Source: Pseudomonas moorei (GTDB taxonomy: Bacteria; Pseudomonadota; Gammaproteobacteria; Pseudomonadales; Pseudomonadaceae). From it: a DNA stretch of 64,000 bases. Numbering within the stretch: position 1 is the first letter of the stretch; every line of letters starts with the position of its first letter. Shown here piece after piece: positions 1,952 to 42,136 of this stretch. Location: positions 1 to 64,000 of the forward strand of contig NZ_VZPP01000010.1 of NCBI RefSeq assembly GCF_008801475.1. The letters run 5' to 3'. Position numbers and translations under genes: made by a program. Under the pieces are notes generated by a model. It ran no database searches and was not told where the DNA came from. It saw nothing but the letters and a program-made list of their open reading frames with translations.

Positions 1952-2154
1952 CTTAACGACCAGGCTAATGGGCAGCCCAAGTGGCTGCGGTAAACTCAGT
2001 CTATCAGCGACTCAACCGAGATCACTTACTCACGCAAAGTTGATTAGTGCTTGATAGCCCACAGTTGAATATGTTTTCGACCCAGCTACATTCGACGGAA
2101 AGCTCATTGTCGTCGAGGTTGCAGGAAAAGGATCTGCACGATACCCTCCCCACC

Positions 2155-2387
2155 GTCGCTGCCAATTCAGCGACCGGGTGTGAGAGCCCGAAATAATCAA
2201 GGCGCAAAGCGCCCCAAAACCTATCGTGGCGTTTTTTTTCGTCTGCGATATGGCTTTATGGCGGCTGTGCGTGGGAGACCTTCGGGTCTACCGGTTGCCT
2301 TGATTGCCGGTTTCTCACCCCACGCACGGCTGTCACCCAAGCCCGTGAGAAGGCTCGTGGCAACTCCTCAAATCAAGGATGTTGACC
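2155..2387 (+). ncRNA. C4-antisense-like structured leader RNA, copy A
   Basis: The element starts with a perfect hairpin (GTCGCTG 2155-2161 / CAGCGAC 2168-2174). Then come segments a1 (GTGAGA, 2180-2185) and b1 (AATCAAGGC, 2195-2203), an attenuator-like pair of hairpins ending in T8 (2201-2239), and a long stem (2260-2275 with 2320-2335) enclosing a UUCG-capped hairpin (AGACC/GGTCT) and a CCGG hairpin. The loop and flank of that last hairpin carry GCCTTGATT (2297-2305) and TCTCAC (2313-2318), complementary to b1 and a1. A second pair, a2 (GTGAGA, 2345-2350) and b2 (AATCAAGG, 2371-2378), overlaps the Shine-Dalgarno of the next ORF. This is the layout of the phage P1/P7 C4 RNA. A diverged copy lies at 40701-40941. 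Confidence 0.7.
2201..2239 (+). terminator. Attenuator-like terminator inside RNA copy A
   Basis: GGCGC (2201-2205) can pair with GCGCC (2209-2213) as a small hairpin. Alternatively CGCC (2210-2213) pairs with GGCG (2228-2231), directly followed by eight T, as a weak intrinsic terminator. The two are mutually exclusive. Copy B has the same arrangement with a stronger terminator stem. Confidence 0.5.
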
Positions 2388-2492
2388 ATGAACAATATAA
2401 ATCCGTTTGAAATTCGGCTTTCCCCTCTACGCAACCCCCAATCCCGCAACACCCTCCCCCACCACCTCTCCCTCATCGGAGGTGGCCAATGA
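2388..2492 (+). CDS. 34-aa leader ORF translationally coupled to DUF3077-like gene (copy A)
   Basis: ATG 2388 is preceded by AAGGA (2375-2379) at 8-nt spacing. That Shine-Dalgarno lies inside segment b2 of the upstream RNA, so pairing with the antisense segment would block it. The predicted peptide begins MNNINPFEIRL and ends ...LIGGGQ. Its last codons contain GGAGGT (2478-2483), the Shine-Dalgarno of the next gene, and its TGA overlaps that gene's ATG (ATGA, 2489-2492). Copy B has an equivalent 20-aa ORF beginning MNAIGL. The peptide sequences are poorly conserved, suggesting that translation matters more than product. Confidence 0.6.
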   Translation: MNNINPFEIRLSPLRNPQSRNTLPHHLSLIGGGQ

Positions 2493-2800
2493 CCCACCAA
2501 CCCGAACTCAAAACCATCGGCCTGACCCCCGCCCTCTACTGCGCGGACCAAGCGCTGTTCCATGTCACGCGCGACGTTCCCCTCGGTGATGCATTGGCCA
2601 TGGCTTCCGATTTTTTGTTTCTGGCCAAGGCGCTGACCCAGGACGCGGCGTATGCCAAGGACACGGACTATCAGGCCTGGGCGGCGCATTATTTGACGGC
2701 GATGAGCAAGGCGGTGGTGGATGATGCGGTGAAGGTTCTGACGCGGGATCGGACGTCGGTGTCCATGCCGAAGCGGGCGGGGGCCAAGTCTGGGGGGTAG
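2489..2800 (+). CDS. DUF3077-like small protein (copy A)
   Basis: A 103-aa soluble protein of the Pseudomonas family I recognise as DUF3077. It shows the conserved start (LKTIGLTP), the LFxV/I core and the C-terminal helix WAAHYLTAMSKAVVDDAVKVL. It is a paralogue of the gene at 41011-41289, where the equivalent helix is WASHFLQDMSKAIIDDVVKVL. No biochemical function is known to me. ATG 2489 overlaps the stop of the leader ORF and has a strong GGAGGT 5 nt upstream, so translation is probably coupled. A REP pair and a hairpin follow the gene. Confidence 0.8.
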   Translation: MTHQPELKTIGLTPALYCADQALFHVTRDVPLGDALAMASDFLFLAKALTQDAAYAKDTDYQAWAAHYLTAMSKAVVDDAVKVLTRDRTSVSMPKRAGAKSGG

Positions 2801-39094: not shown

Positions 39095-40513
39095 ATGCAG
39101 GCTCAGCGAGCAGTGATCGCCGCTATCGAGTTCCAGCCAGGTGTGCCGCTGGTCCAGCAAATCGTCGATCAACTAACCGTGGCGATCAGTCAGGGCGGCC
39201 TGCCCCACGGCTCCAGGCTGCCGCCGATTCGCGAACTCTCCGACTTGATGCACGTGGGCAAGTCCACGGTGGTCGACGCCCTGGACCGCTTGCGGGCCAA
39301 GGGCCTGGTGGTTTCCCGCCAGGGTTCCGGGCACTACGTGCACCGTTCCAGCAGCACCCTGCCAGCCAACGCCGGGCCGGACCTGCTCCCGCAAGACACC
39401 CTCAGCGTGGTCCGCCGTGCGGTGCTACTGGACAATGGCAAGCTGCGCCCGGGGGCCGGTTTTCTGCCGTCCTCGTGGTTGCCTGCCGAAGAATTGCTCA
39501 AGGCCGTGCGCGGAACGCTGCGCGCGACCAGCTTGCGCATGGGCGAATACGGCAACGCCAGCGGTTACCTGCCATTGCGCCAGGCCTTGCGGGTCAAGAT
39601 GTCGACCTTGGGCATTGAGGCGCCGGTGGAGCAGATCATCACCACCGCCAACACCGTCCAGGCCATCGACATGCTGATGCGCCTGCTGGTCAAACCCGGC
39701 GACACGGTGCTCCTCGACGACCCGTGTTACTTCACGATGCACACCAATCTGGCCTGGCATGGCGTGAAGGTCATTACCATCCGCCGCGAGTGCGACGGCA
39801 TGGACCTGGACGCGTTCGAGCAATTGCTGATCACCCATCGTCCCGTGCTCTACATGACCAACAATGCCCTGCATAACCCGACCGGGCACTCGTTCACCTC
39901 GGCCCAGGTTTACCGCCTGGTGGAGCTGAGCCATCGCTACAACTTCCACATCCTCGAAGACGATTTGTACTGCGACATGCAGCAACGCCGAACGCCGCGC
40001 CTGGCCGCGAGCGGGCTGGACAATGTCTCTTACGTCTCCGGGTTTTCCAAGACCCTGACCGCCAATAGCCGCGTCAGCTTCGCGGTGCTGTCACCGCAAC
40101 TGGCGGCGCGGATGGTGACGCTGAAAATGGCCTGCGGCGGCATGACTTCGGAAATGGCCGAGCAGATCATCTGCACCATGCTCAGCGATGGCAGCTACGC
40201 CAAACACATGCGCCGCACCGTGGACCGGCTCTACGAGTCGAACAGCCGGGTGGCGGCATGGCTGGGCGAAGCCGGGTGTTCGGTGTCGTCGCTGCCGGGG
40301 GAAGGGTTGTACATCTGGACCCGATTGCCGGAAGGATTCAAAGCCGAGTGCCTGGCCAGAAAGGGTCTGGAAATTGACCTGGTACTAGCACCGGGAACCA
40401 TGCTCAGCAAAGCCGCGGATGCCAATCAGTTTCTGCGCTTCAACGTGGCACACAGTGATCATGTGCAGGTGCGGGAGCGATTTTTCCGGTTGTTGGACAT
40501 GCCGCACAAATAA
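39095..40513 (+). CDS. MocR-type regulator (GntR HTH + aminotransferase domain), gene 2
   Basis: 472 aa: GntR winged helix (about 15-85, LPHGSRLPPIRELSDLMHVGKSTVVDALDRLRAKGLVVSRQGSGHYV) and an aminotransferase-like domain with PLP lysine in SGFSKTLTANSRV. It is divergent from the exporter-ligase operon, 151 bp away, and is the best candidate pathway-specific regulator of the cluster. The sequence MQAQRAVIAAIEF starts with ATG 39095. Confidence 0.9.
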   Translation: MQAQRAVIAAIEFQPGVPLVQQIVDQLTVAISQGGLPHGSRLPPIRELSDLMHVGKSTVVDALDRLRAKGLVVSRQGSGHYVHRSSSTLPANAGPDLLPQDTLSVVRRAVLLDNGKLRPGAGFLPSSWLPAEELLKAVRGTLRATSLRMGEYGNASGYLPLRQALRVKMSTLGIEAPVEQIITTANTVQAIDMLMRLLVKPGDTVLLDDPCYFTMHTNLAWHGVKVITIRRECDGMDLDAFEQLLITHRPVLYMTNNALHNPTGHSFTSAQVYRLVELSHRYNFHILEDDLYCDMQQRRTPRLAASGLDNVSYVSGFSKTLTANSRVSFAVLSPQLAARMVTLKMACGGMTSEMAEQIICTMLSDGSYAKHMRRTVDRLYESNSRVAAWLGEAGCSVSSLPGEGLYIWTRLPEGFKAECLARKGLEIDLVLAPGTMLSKAADANQFLRFNVAHSDHVQVRERFFRLLDMPHK

Positions 40514-40530
40514 CTGACTGTCTTCGATCC

Positions 40531-40622
40531 TGTGGGAGCGGGCTTGCCCGCGAAAGGGCCGTCACATTCAGTTTCAATGTCGCCTGACCCACCGCCATCG
40601 CGGGCAGGCCCGCTCCCACAGG
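40531..40622. repeat. REP pair
   Basis: CTGTGGGAGCGGGCTTGCCC and its inverse GGGCAGGCCCGCTCCCACAG lie about 50 bp apart after MocR gene 2 and may end its transcription. Confidence 0.8.
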
Positions 40623-40700
40623 GGGTTCGGTGTGCAATAAGATCCCCGGCCACCAGATCGCCACGATTGCCGACCTCATCCTGACTGACTAACTTTGCCC

Positions 40701-40941
40701 GTCGCTGCCAATTCAGCGACCGGGCCTGATAACCCGGGTAAGATACGGGCGCACAAGCGCCACCAATCACGATTGCCGGCGCTTTTTTATGCCTGCACAC
40801 TCGTGCAATGGCGGCTGTGCGTGGGAGACCTTCGGGTCTGCCGGAATCCCGTATCTCCGGTTTATCAGCCTGCGCACAGCTGCCACCCATTCGCCTGATA
40901 ACGAACGTGGCAGCTCTCAACTTTAAACGGGAGCTTTACTC
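40701..40941 (+). ncRNA. C4-antisense-like structured leader RNA, copy B
   Basis: Same architecture as 2155-2387. Hairpin GTCGCTG/CAGCGAC (40701-40720). Segments a1 (GCCTGATAAC, 40724-40733) and b1 (GATACGGG, 40742-40749). An attenuator pair: GGCGC/GCGCC hairpin versus AGCGCC...GGCGCT stem with T6 (40756-40788). A long stem GGCTGTGCG/CGCACAGC (about 40813-40821 and 40873-40880) encloses the AGACC-UUCG-GGTCT hairpin and a CCGG hairpin with CCCGTATC (40848-40855) and TTATCAG (40862-40868). These are complementary to b1 and a1. Segment a2 (GCCTGATAAC, 40893-40902) is an exact repeat of a1, and b2 (ACGGG, 40927-40931) is the leader ORF Shine-Dalgarno. Confidence 0.7.
40756..40788 (+). terminator. 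Attenuator-like terminator inside RNA copy B
   Basis: AGCGCC (40756-40761) pairs with GGCGCT (40778-40783), followed by TTTTT. The left arm can instead pair with upstream GGCGC (40748-40752), giving an exclusive alternative. It should end part of the transcription before the antisense segment. Confidence 0.6.
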
Positions 40942-41004
40942 ATGAACGCTATTGGTCTGTCTGCTTCGAACGTCATCCATCGCCTCCAACCCAACAGGAG
41001 GTGA
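40942..41004 (+). CDS. 20-aa leader ORF upstream of DUF3077-like gene (copy B)
   Basis: ATG 40942 is preceded by ACGGGAG (40927-40933) at 8-nt spacing; this Shine-Dalgarno is target segment b2 of the RNA. The peptide MNAIGLSASNVIHRLQPNRR ends within AGGAGGTGA, so its last two codons form the Shine-Dalgarno of the DUF3077-like gene, which starts 6 nt after the stop. Arrangement as in copy A, but with a short gap in place of the ATGA overlap. Confidence 0.6.
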   Translation: MNAIGLSASNVIHRLQPNRR

Positions 41005-41010
41005 ATCCCA

Positions 41011-41289
41011 ATGACCATTCCACAAGACCTGAAAACCATCGGCCTCACCCCCTTCTCCTACCACGCCAACGCCCCGCTGTTCCGCATCAACGCCGGCGTC
41101 CCGGTAATCGCCGCCCTCTCCCACGCTTCCGACCTGCTCCACCTCGCCAAACTCCTCGCCTCAGACGCCACCATGGTCCGCGACTCCGACCGACACGCCT
41201 GGGCCTCGCACTTCTTGCAGGACATGAGCAAGGCCATCATCGATGACGTGGTGAAGGTGCTCGATGCACCGTGCAACAACCGCGCATAA
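41011..41289 (+). CDS. DUF3077-like small protein (copy B)
   Basis: 92-aa paralogue of the 2489 gene. It shares LKTIGLTPF, LFRINAGVPVIAALSHASDLLHLAKLLA and the helix WASHFLQDMSKAIIDDVVKVL. The central part of copy A differs considerably (CADQALFHVTRDVPL), so the two are old duplicates. It is soluble and of unknown function. Strong AGGAGGT lies 8 nt before ATG 41011. Confidence 0.82.
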   Translation: MTIPQDLKTIGLTPFSYHANAPLFRINAGVPVIAALSHASDLLHLAKLLASDATMVRDSDRHAWASHFLQDMSKAIIDDVVKVLDAPCNNRA

Positions 41290-41290
41290 A

Positions 41291-41326
41291 TGAAAAAGCC
41301 CCGCGATTCTTTTGAATGCGGGGCTT
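41291..41326. terminator. Bidirectional intrinsic terminator
   Basis: AAAGCCCCGC (41293-41302) pairs with GCGGGGCTTT (41316-41325), with A and T runs outside. It serves the DUF3077-like gene and the convergent toxin-antitoxin operon. Confidence 0.8.
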
Positions 41327-41346: not shown

Positions 41347-41661
41347 TCAAACCACTGCCAGTCGATCTACCATATCCGGGAATTTCTCAACCAGTCTAAT
41401 CAACAAGGCCGCCTGAGCGTTAGGCTTTGATTTTTCCTGCTCCCAGTTTCTCAAGGTACTGGGGCTAGTGCGAATTCGCTTGGCGAAAACGGCTTGGGAC
41501 ATGTGTAACTTTTCCCTTAGTGCAACGATTTCCTGCGCTCCCACCTCTGGAGCCGGAATGTCCTCCACAGTCGTATTGCGCAACGTAATCTTGCCTTCGC
41601 GTTGAGCCGCCATCTCGTCAACGCCTTGCATCAACTCTGCAAACAGGTCGCGCTTTTTCAT
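41347..41661 (-). CDS. HigA/NadS-type antitoxin (XRE-family HTH)
   Basis: 104 aa with a C-terminal HTH_XRE domain (about 44-98): REKLHMSQAVFAKRIRTSPSTLRNWEQEKSKPNAQAALLIRLV. The layout, with an N-terminal extension that would wrap the toxin, is usual for antitoxins of HigBA/RelE-like pairs whose toxin gene comes first. Its ATG overlaps the toxin stop (ATGA, 41658-41661), coupling translation. It should repress the operon through the palindrome at 42010-42030. Confidence 0.88.
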   Translation of the reverse strand: MKKRDLFAELMQGVDEMAAQREGKITLRNTTVEDIPAPEVGAQEIVALREKLHMSQAVFAKRIRTSPSTLRNWEQEKSKPNAQAALLIRLVEKFPDMVDRLAVV

Positions 41662-42002
41662 GGGGTACCTCGTACTTTCAACTCTGTCTCTATGGCTTTC
41701 TTGAGCGCCTTCTCTTGGTCAGCGGTCAAATTCTCAAGCTCATCTTTGTCATAAATTGCAAACATCCAGAACTGGCCATCATTCATAAGCCAATAATAGA
41801 TAACCCGCAAGCCACCTCGCTTGCCTTTCCCCCGGCGCTCATCGGCCCAGCGTAGCTTTCGGAAACCTCCCGTATGAGGCATCACATCGCCCGCGTGCGG
41901 ATTCAGCTGCATGTGGCTTTGTAGCGCACGATACTCATCGTCCGTCAGATAATTGCCAACGGTGGCGGTAAAGGATGTGATTTCGAAGAATACGGTTCGC
42001 AT
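41658..42002 (-). CDS. HigB/RelE-type toxin
   Basis: 114 aa starting MRTVFFEITSFTATVGNYLTDDEYRALQSHMQLNP. It matches the RelE/HigB-2 group, with the KLRWADERRGKGKRGGLRVIYYW core of basic catalytic residues and the C-terminal LTADQEKALKKAIETEL helix. These toxins are ribosome-dependent mRNA endonucleases. ATG 42002 is the better start: the alternative at 42113 would place the operator palindrome inside the gene and adds residues unlike the family. Confidence 0.88.
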   Translation of the reverse strand: MRTVFFEITSFTATVGNYLTDDEYRALQSHMQLNPHAGDVMPHTGGFRKLRWADERRGKGKRGGLRVIYYWLMNDGQFWMFAIYDKDELENLTADQEKALKKAIETELKVRGTP

Positions 42003-42009
42003 CGCGCAA

Positions 42010-42030
42010 CTATAGGCAATTTGCCTATAG
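42010..42030. promoter_or_regulatory. Operator palindrome of the toxin-antitoxin operon
   Basis: Ten-base arms CTATAGGCAA and TTGCCTATAG form a perfect inverted repeat around a central T, 8 bp upstream of the toxin start. The octamer TCGCGCAA flanks it on both sides as a direct repeat (42002-42009 and 42031-42038). Its TATAGG/CCTATAG arms also offer a -10-like sequence, so antitoxin binding would block RNA polymerase. Confidence 0.75.
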
Positions 42031-42100
42031 TCGCGCAATACAATGAGCCATCTCTTGATGAACTTGCCGACAGTCTTGACCGACAGACAGCAACCCAACA

Positions 42101-42136
42101 AAAAGCCCCGCACTTCTCTCGAAGGCGGGGCTTTTC
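42101..42136 (-). terminator. Intrinsic terminator of the cyo operon
   Basis: AAAAGCCCCGC (42101-42111) pairs with GCGGGGCTTTT (42125-42135), symmetrical and usable in both directions. It lies 18 bp after cyoE. Confidence 0.85.

Follow-up and report, generated by a model that had tools for sequence, protein, structure and literature searches.

A probable phage-derived C4 antisense lock ahead of a DUF3077 gene in a Pseudomonas chromosome

Architecture of the copy B unit

Our analysis covered a 64,000-nucleotide stretch of Pseudomonas moorei DNA (contig NZ_VZPP01000010.1, positions 1 to 64,000), hereafter the window, which holds two related units, copy A and copy B. Copy B is neighboured by chromosomal genes, namely a MocR-type regulator, a toxin-antitoxin-like pair and cyoE. 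The pair consists of two small minus-strand genes (41347-42113) that adjoin copy B and are kept at several homologous loci; we take it to resemble the HigA/HigB toxin-antitoxin system. The interval that separates copy B from the MocR-type gene contains an inverted REP-like repeat, formed by TGTGGGAGCGGGCTTGCCCGCGA and its near complement at 40531-40553 and 40598-40620.

The unit itself lies on the plus strand and opens with a c4-a1b1 element (Rfam RF03163; 40689-40740; 50.8 bits against a gathering threshold of 46.7). Its leader transcript carries a 5′ hairpin in the predicted fold, GTCGCTG/CAGCGAC (GTCGCTGCCAATTCAGCGAC, 40701-40720), followed by the upstream recognition 10-mer a1 (GCCTGATAAC, 40724-40733), which the fold places in a hairpin loop, and by b1 (AGATACGGG, 40741-40749). 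A GCGC and T-run 3′ of b1 (40779-40788) reads as a candidate terminator of a short IsrK-like RNA; the terminator scan did not call it, and neither a sigma-70-like promoter nor a plus-strand terminator was called in the scan of 40500-41320. The C4 antisense RNA follows (RF01695; 40804-40890; 79.8 bits, gathering 45), with stems P1, P2 (UUCG) and P3 in its fold. The P3 loop carries b′ (CCCGTATC, 40848-40855), which matches b2 over 6 nt versus 9 nt for b1, and the single-stranded a′ (TTATCAG, 40862-40868), complementary to a1 and a2, lies between P3 and P1. Immediately 3′ of C4 is the a2 target (40893-40902), with the same letters as a1; b2 (AAACGGGAG, 40925-40933), which matches b′ through ACGGGA, is the Shine-Dalgarno of a 20-aa leader ORF (40942-41004). 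The leader stop lies 6 nt ahead of the start of a 92-aa DUF3077 protein (PF11275; 41011-41289; 113.6 bits), an arrangement that suggests translational coupling. The original prediction had quoted these copy B segments, with a1 and a2 as identical 10-mers and b2 as the Shine-Dalgarno, and all were found in the window.

It had also called the element an RNA switch; that this is a new kind of switch is ruled out by Rfam, which places copy B in the C4 family. A covariance-model score over gathering, three stems with b′ on the P3 loop and a′ in the linker from P3 to P1, a1/b1 upstream, and complementarity of a′ and b′ (7 and 6 nt) to a2 and b2 at the downstream ribosome-binding site were all found. 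On these sequence features, the copy B RNA is a C4 antisense RNA, a type known from phages P1 and P7.

In P1 and P7, C4 is cut out of its precursor by RNase P, and the ant product of P1 is an antirepressor. Citron and Schuster (1990) is cited in the C4-related literature. Copy B resembles the P1/P7 C4 in sequence, in its three-stem fold, and in carrying a1/b1 upstream, a′/b′ within C4 and a2/b2 at the downstream ribosome-binding site, all on the same strand. It differs in lying between chromosomal genes and in being one of many copies per genome; whereas the C4 of the P1/P7 immI operon controls the icd/ant antirepressor in a phage, the target here is a leader and a DUF3077 gene in a chromosomal context, with related units in phage contigs.

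Copy A, the comparison unit (2141-2800, plus strand), comprises by Rfam and Pfam a c4-a1b1 element (2141-2194), an isrK match (2155-2239), C4 (2254-2340) and a DUF3077 gene (2489-2800). The GTCGCTG hairpin, which had been described as common to both copies, recurs as an exact duplicate at 2155-2174, and the shared core GGCGGCTGTGCGTGGGAGAC occurs in the window only at 40810-40829 and 2260-2279 (2 matches at up to 3 mismatches; 0.01 expected). Copy A scores over gathering for IsrK (RF01394; 50.8 versus 50 bits), and copy B does not. As far as the available portions of PMC4825925 describe it, the IsrK-orf45-anrP system of Salmonella Gifsy-1 similarly has a short 5′ RNA and couples a small leader ORF to the gene that follows it, and in copy A the stop of the leader and the start of DUF3077 overlap (ATGA), as in orf45/anrP; C4 is not named in those portions. 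Unlike that system, copy B has its stop and start 6 nt apart, and its product shows no relation by name or by Pfam.

Own-target pairing and three-site co-variation

The antisense of copy B had been proposed to have altered to suit its own target, and exact matching agrees with this. For the C4 of copy B, the longest matches to a2 and b2 are 7 and 6 nt on its own target versus 3 and 4 nt on that of copy A; likewise, the C4 of copy A matches its own target over 7 and 8 nt versus 3 and 4 nt on that of copy B. From this base pairing, the two copies are predicted to be orthogonal.

The 14 C4s of the P. moorei genome, 13 of which fold into a clean three-stem structure (L011 folds differently), were compared with all 14 targets in a matrix of ungapped helices. 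Own a2+b2 pairing averaged −26.2 kcal/mol versus −17.5 for permuted targets, none of 100,000 permutations was as good, and the own target ranked first for 11 of the 14 C4s (10 of 14 with wider windows). Bulge-tolerant duplex scoring gave a weaker signal: five of the 14 C4s had their own target in first place, that of copy B came seventh of 14, and only 35 (a2) and 1 (b2) of 20,000 permutations were not exceeded; we judged free duplex folding noisy as a specificity measure and used ungapped helices in its place, keeping both results. The 43 × 43 matrix of genome G097 gave −27.5 versus −18.9 (z −18.7; 0 of 20,000 permutations), and the own target ranked first for 30 of the 43 C4s. This excess of own pairing over every permutation, seen in both genomes, supports the compensatory change that had been claimed.

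A wider set of 139 units, made up of 101 taken from genomes, less 5 duplicates, together with 43 homologues of copy B, is not independent, and species may recur in it. In this set, longest exact matches of at least 6 nt joined a′ to a1 in 136 units and to a2 in 134, and b′ to b1 in 97 and to b2 in 106, with a shorter b2 match in 33; with the targets of other units, such matches arose in 18.4% (a1), 15.6% (a2), 21.9% (b1) and 14.9% (b2). There were 34 distinct matched a strings. The five a2 misses comprised L007 and L011 in the P. moorei genome and L028, L085 and L097 in G097, the last a weak C4 match of 29.9 bits. The predicted C4/target pairing is well supported by these counts.

The expectation that each copy has a private recognition pair held for the b segments, which differ, and failed for the a segments. 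UUGGUAG is common to L003 and L009 and is used by at least nine copies in G097, and an a′ of UUAGUAG occurs in L007, L008 and L012. Because several copies have one a 7-mer in common, privacy rests on b; a wholly private code per copy is ruled out for a by these common 7-mers and kept for b. Once all copies in the genome were collected, the antisense fitted its own target in 12 of the 14. The exceptions, which are of the kind that had been named as refuting, are L007 and L011, which lack a matching a2 or b2. The former has an altered a2 and the latter no target gene downstream on its own strand; as the a′ of each continues to fit the a1 of the same unit, both are read as probably decayed units.

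Searching the contigs of named Pseudomonas genomes with the copy-B protein yielded 58 homologues, 43 of them with C4. An a′ of the type CTGA[T/G]AA was present in 32 units, that of the window included, and all three sites were located in 31 (the remaining unit, L169, had no recognised a1). Every one of these 31 complete a1/a′/a2 triples was in step, with 8 T/T/T, 23 G/G/G and none mixed, as expected of compensatory change on a kept scaffold. On a tree of the neighbouring gene's coding sequence, the T/G code needs at least 8 changes, 5 of them forced by well-supported branches, and its labels are unclustered (8 changes versus a shuffled mean of 7.3); therefore, swapping of leaders between strains may have aided its spread. 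Two strain pairs speak against leader exchange alone. Of 272 positions, 4 separate L147 from L150, and three of these are the code position in a1, a′ and a2; L128 differs from L150 at six positions, again including those three. At the chromosomal site of copy B, defined by an adjoining MocR gene and/or cyoE (14 C4 loci plus the window), the code is T in 5 and G in 10 cases, a1 and a2 are matched in 15 of 15, and b2 is matched over at least 6 nt in 13 of 15. In nine copy-B homologues (L126, L127, L130, L131, L132, L138, L141, L151 and L155), b′ fits the leader start codon region (ATGCACG or TGCACG) and not the Shine-Dalgarno; their locks appear to be retargeted, yet still at translation initiation. 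As read from the aligned units, the three-site co-change is unusually clear here.

These data bear on the reading that the units are decaying prophage relics, with pairing that persists merely by recent ancestry. The two decayed copies among 14, the target-less C4 L028 in G097, the C4-less or truncated homologues and the presence of such units in phage contigs are all compatible with it. However, neutral decay would not alter three distant sites in step, nor would it keep own pairing above all permutations across the 43 units of G097, and 43 and 14 units per chromosome are many for debris. The relic reading is already disfavoured, and we regard it as improbable.

Copy number, guarded products and phage links

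All 14 C4s of the 6.47-Mb P. moorei genome score over gathering, and none was found in 14 control genomes. Across 119 genomes of the genus, including that of P. moorei, a C4 match at E ≤ 0.001 occurred in 110 and one over gathering in 109; the median count was 13, with at least 10 in 73 genomes and at least 33 in 16. G097, searched alone, gave 43 matches, 42 of them over gathering. C4 was present in 17 of 273 further genomes drawn from across the class, with a highest count of 6 among the best 15 or fewer candidates per genome. Pseudomonas chromosomes can hold dozens of C4 locks, each ahead of its own small gene; this scale and this partner were not found in print in the accessible portions of the literature searched, nor was a link between C4 and DUF3077 or DUF6124 in the same portions, including those of PMC2864571, PMC5320573, PMC9630843, PMC4825925 and PMC12197685. 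The RNA is known; its amplification and its partners are unusual. The available text of PMC5320573 describes a single A. baumannii genome with many C4-like sRNAs and notes that 4 nt of difference bar cross-reaction between the C4s of P1 and P7. The Group 1 sRNAs described there are alike in being many per chromosome with varying a′ loops, and are expressed and apparently processed; unlike the units here, with their cis targets, co-variation and product families, they are proposed to have unknown targets.

The P. moorei genome has 11 DUF3077/DUF6124 genes, three DUF3077 and eight DUF6124 (one also a weak DUF3077 match), and nine of the 11 sit 3′ of a C4 on the same strand. The remaining two are a gene on contig C23, divergent from the orphan C4 L011, and a gene on C15 that has no C4. 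Pfam assigned no family to the products of L005, L006, L013 and L014, and NCBIfam gave no match for eight products. Of 30 loci in relatives found by the DUF3077 protein, 28 have a C4, in some cases about 0.5 kb upstream with an intervening ORF. DUF6124 was absent from the 273 other genomes of the class, and the copy-B protein from 13 other genomes of the order. Many products of C4 units (e.g., those of L003, L040, L050 and L084) have a conserved N-terminal PNPP/PDPP motif directly after the start codon. In P. putida KT2440, according to the available part of PMC9630843, a strain evolved on furfural has a DUF3077 pseudogene (PP_RS01475) altered to an open frame. The products are mostly 80-127 aa, with a helical hairpin predicted at low confidence. 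Modelling of DUF3077 reached a pLDDT of 56.7 without an alignment and 69.0 with 27 sequences; Foldseek found no fold match for the latter model (best E 2.0), and PDB sequences gave no match.

Ibs/Sib loci exemplify multiple non-cross-reacting type I toxin-antitoxin copies, and type I toxins are short hydrophobic peptides. A similar role, with C4 silencing a harmful small protein, would account for an antisense RNA on a small protein, the multiple copies and the private b segments. We nevertheless give it little credence, given that the guarded product is a 92-aa DUF3077 protein in copy B and that the products generally, with their size range and tentative helical hairpin, are not short hydrophobic peptides. 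C4-less homologues also argue against a strong toxin, for which a retained open frame would hardly be tolerable. C4 is missing in 15 of the 58 copy-B homologues, so the lock is dispensable or replaceable, and the frame is open in 10 of these 15 (L135, L139, L140, L143, L144, L145, L148, L152, L153 and L174), eight of which have an alternative Shine-Dalgarno hairpin or share its leader. This short leader is common to L135, L139, L140, L143, L144, L145, L148 and L152. In the four that were folded (L135, L140, L144 and L152), GAGAACUC, which derives from a1, forms a stem with GAGUUCUC across the Shine-Dalgarno, at modest z scores of −1.7 to −2.4; no such hairpin was seen in the fold of L153, which is related to the group. 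In the short-leader homologues, a cis lock built out of the former a1 may perhaps have taken the place of the antisense lock. Among the other C4-less homologues, C4 has been lost from between the b1 and a2 of L174, the start of L175 is damaged, and L178-L181 are partial genes.

Links to phages depended on the query. The copy-B protein retrieved no DUF3077 from INPHARED phages and plasmids, three further DUF3077/DUF6124 proteins found none in INPHARED phages, and the copy-B protein as a single query found none in IMG/VR. A DUF3077 profile, on the other hand, retrieved 45 IMG/VR contigs, 37 of them with C4; in these 37 units a2 matches in 37, a1 in 35 and b2 in 26, with 13 distinct codes. A phage-type repressor lies downstream in 20 of the 45 contigs, 19 of which have C4, and the primase of contig L192, whose repressor, primase and integrase were confirmed by PHROGs, is present in 22 of the 45.

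The viral targets also allow the units to be viewed as domesticated C4s that provide superinfection immunity, acting in trans on phages with the same a2/b2. The available portions of PMC5320573 suggest this for the A. baumannii C4-like sRNAs, and three IMG/VR contigs (L190, L193 and L194) have targets that fit the copy A C4 (7 and 8 nt). Those three contigs, however, have no match to the L192 repressor, primase or integrase and so may be host DNA, none of the 37 viral targets is matched over ≥7 nt in both segments by any of the other 13 C4s of the genome, and 12 of the 14 retain their own cis targets. On balance, we hold immunity in trans to be a poor prospect.

Several observations point toward repressor control. 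C4 precedes a Bro-N protein (43.4 bits) in L025 (G100:C1:6480806-6480892), and 9 of its 11 PHROG matches are named anti-repressor. The C4-less DUF6124 gene on C15 (L016/L105, G000:C15:108861) is divergent from an S24/HTH_3 repressor gene, orthologues of which are present in 17 of 25 genomes of the genus, with a DUF6124-like gene adjoining in 16 of the 17. A location of this DUF6124 gene within a pyocin or prophage cluster was considered and rejected, the surrounding 34 kb reading as metabolic-type genes. PHROGs placed DUF3077 in two families of unknown function only, and homology to a known antirepressor was not found there. An antirepressor-like role for the small DUF3077 and DUF6124 proteins is the best guess because of the phage-repressor neighbours, the Bro-N unit, the S24 pair, P1 ant and Gifsy AnrP; we put it tentatively, at a little under even odds.

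Proposed mechanism and meaning

Family membership, pairing, co-variation and copy number were established by computation. We consider it likely, with a probability of roughly 0.8, that copy B is a phage-derived C4 translational lock, standing alone in a Pseudomonas chromosome, on a leader and a DUF3077 gene. A single same-strand transcript would carry a1-b1, the C4 RNA and the mRNA for the 20-aa leader and the 92-aa DUF3077 protein, and C4 would be released by processing, presumably as by RNase P in P1/P7. Its a′ is computed to pair with a2 and its b′ with b2, the latter being the leader Shine-Dalgarno; this pairing would halt translation of the leader and thereby switch off the coupled DUF3077 gene. 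The a1-b1 segment, with the same recognition letters, may act as a decoy or remodeller that opens the lock, like IsrK in Gifsy-1. Changes in the recognition letters would be fixed jointly in a1, a′ and a2, so that units could diverge in specificity and coexist.

A broader proposal, which we advance as speculation and consider somewhat unlikely as a whole, is that Pseudomonas carries dozens of fast-diversifying, insulated antisense-locked units, with a common a class and a private b, that silence small phage-derived antirepressor-like proteins until they are individually opened. Such a network would stem from phage immunity, and its codes would be renewed by simultaneous three-site change.

The units offer a naturally occurring collection of antisense-target pairs, both matching and non-matching (43 in G097), for the study of how RNA specificity evolves, and strain pairs such as L147/L150 differ almost solely at the three positions of a single code. 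Most C4-locked genes fall in two families of unknown function, and DUF3077 and DUF6124 hereby gain a testable hypothesis.
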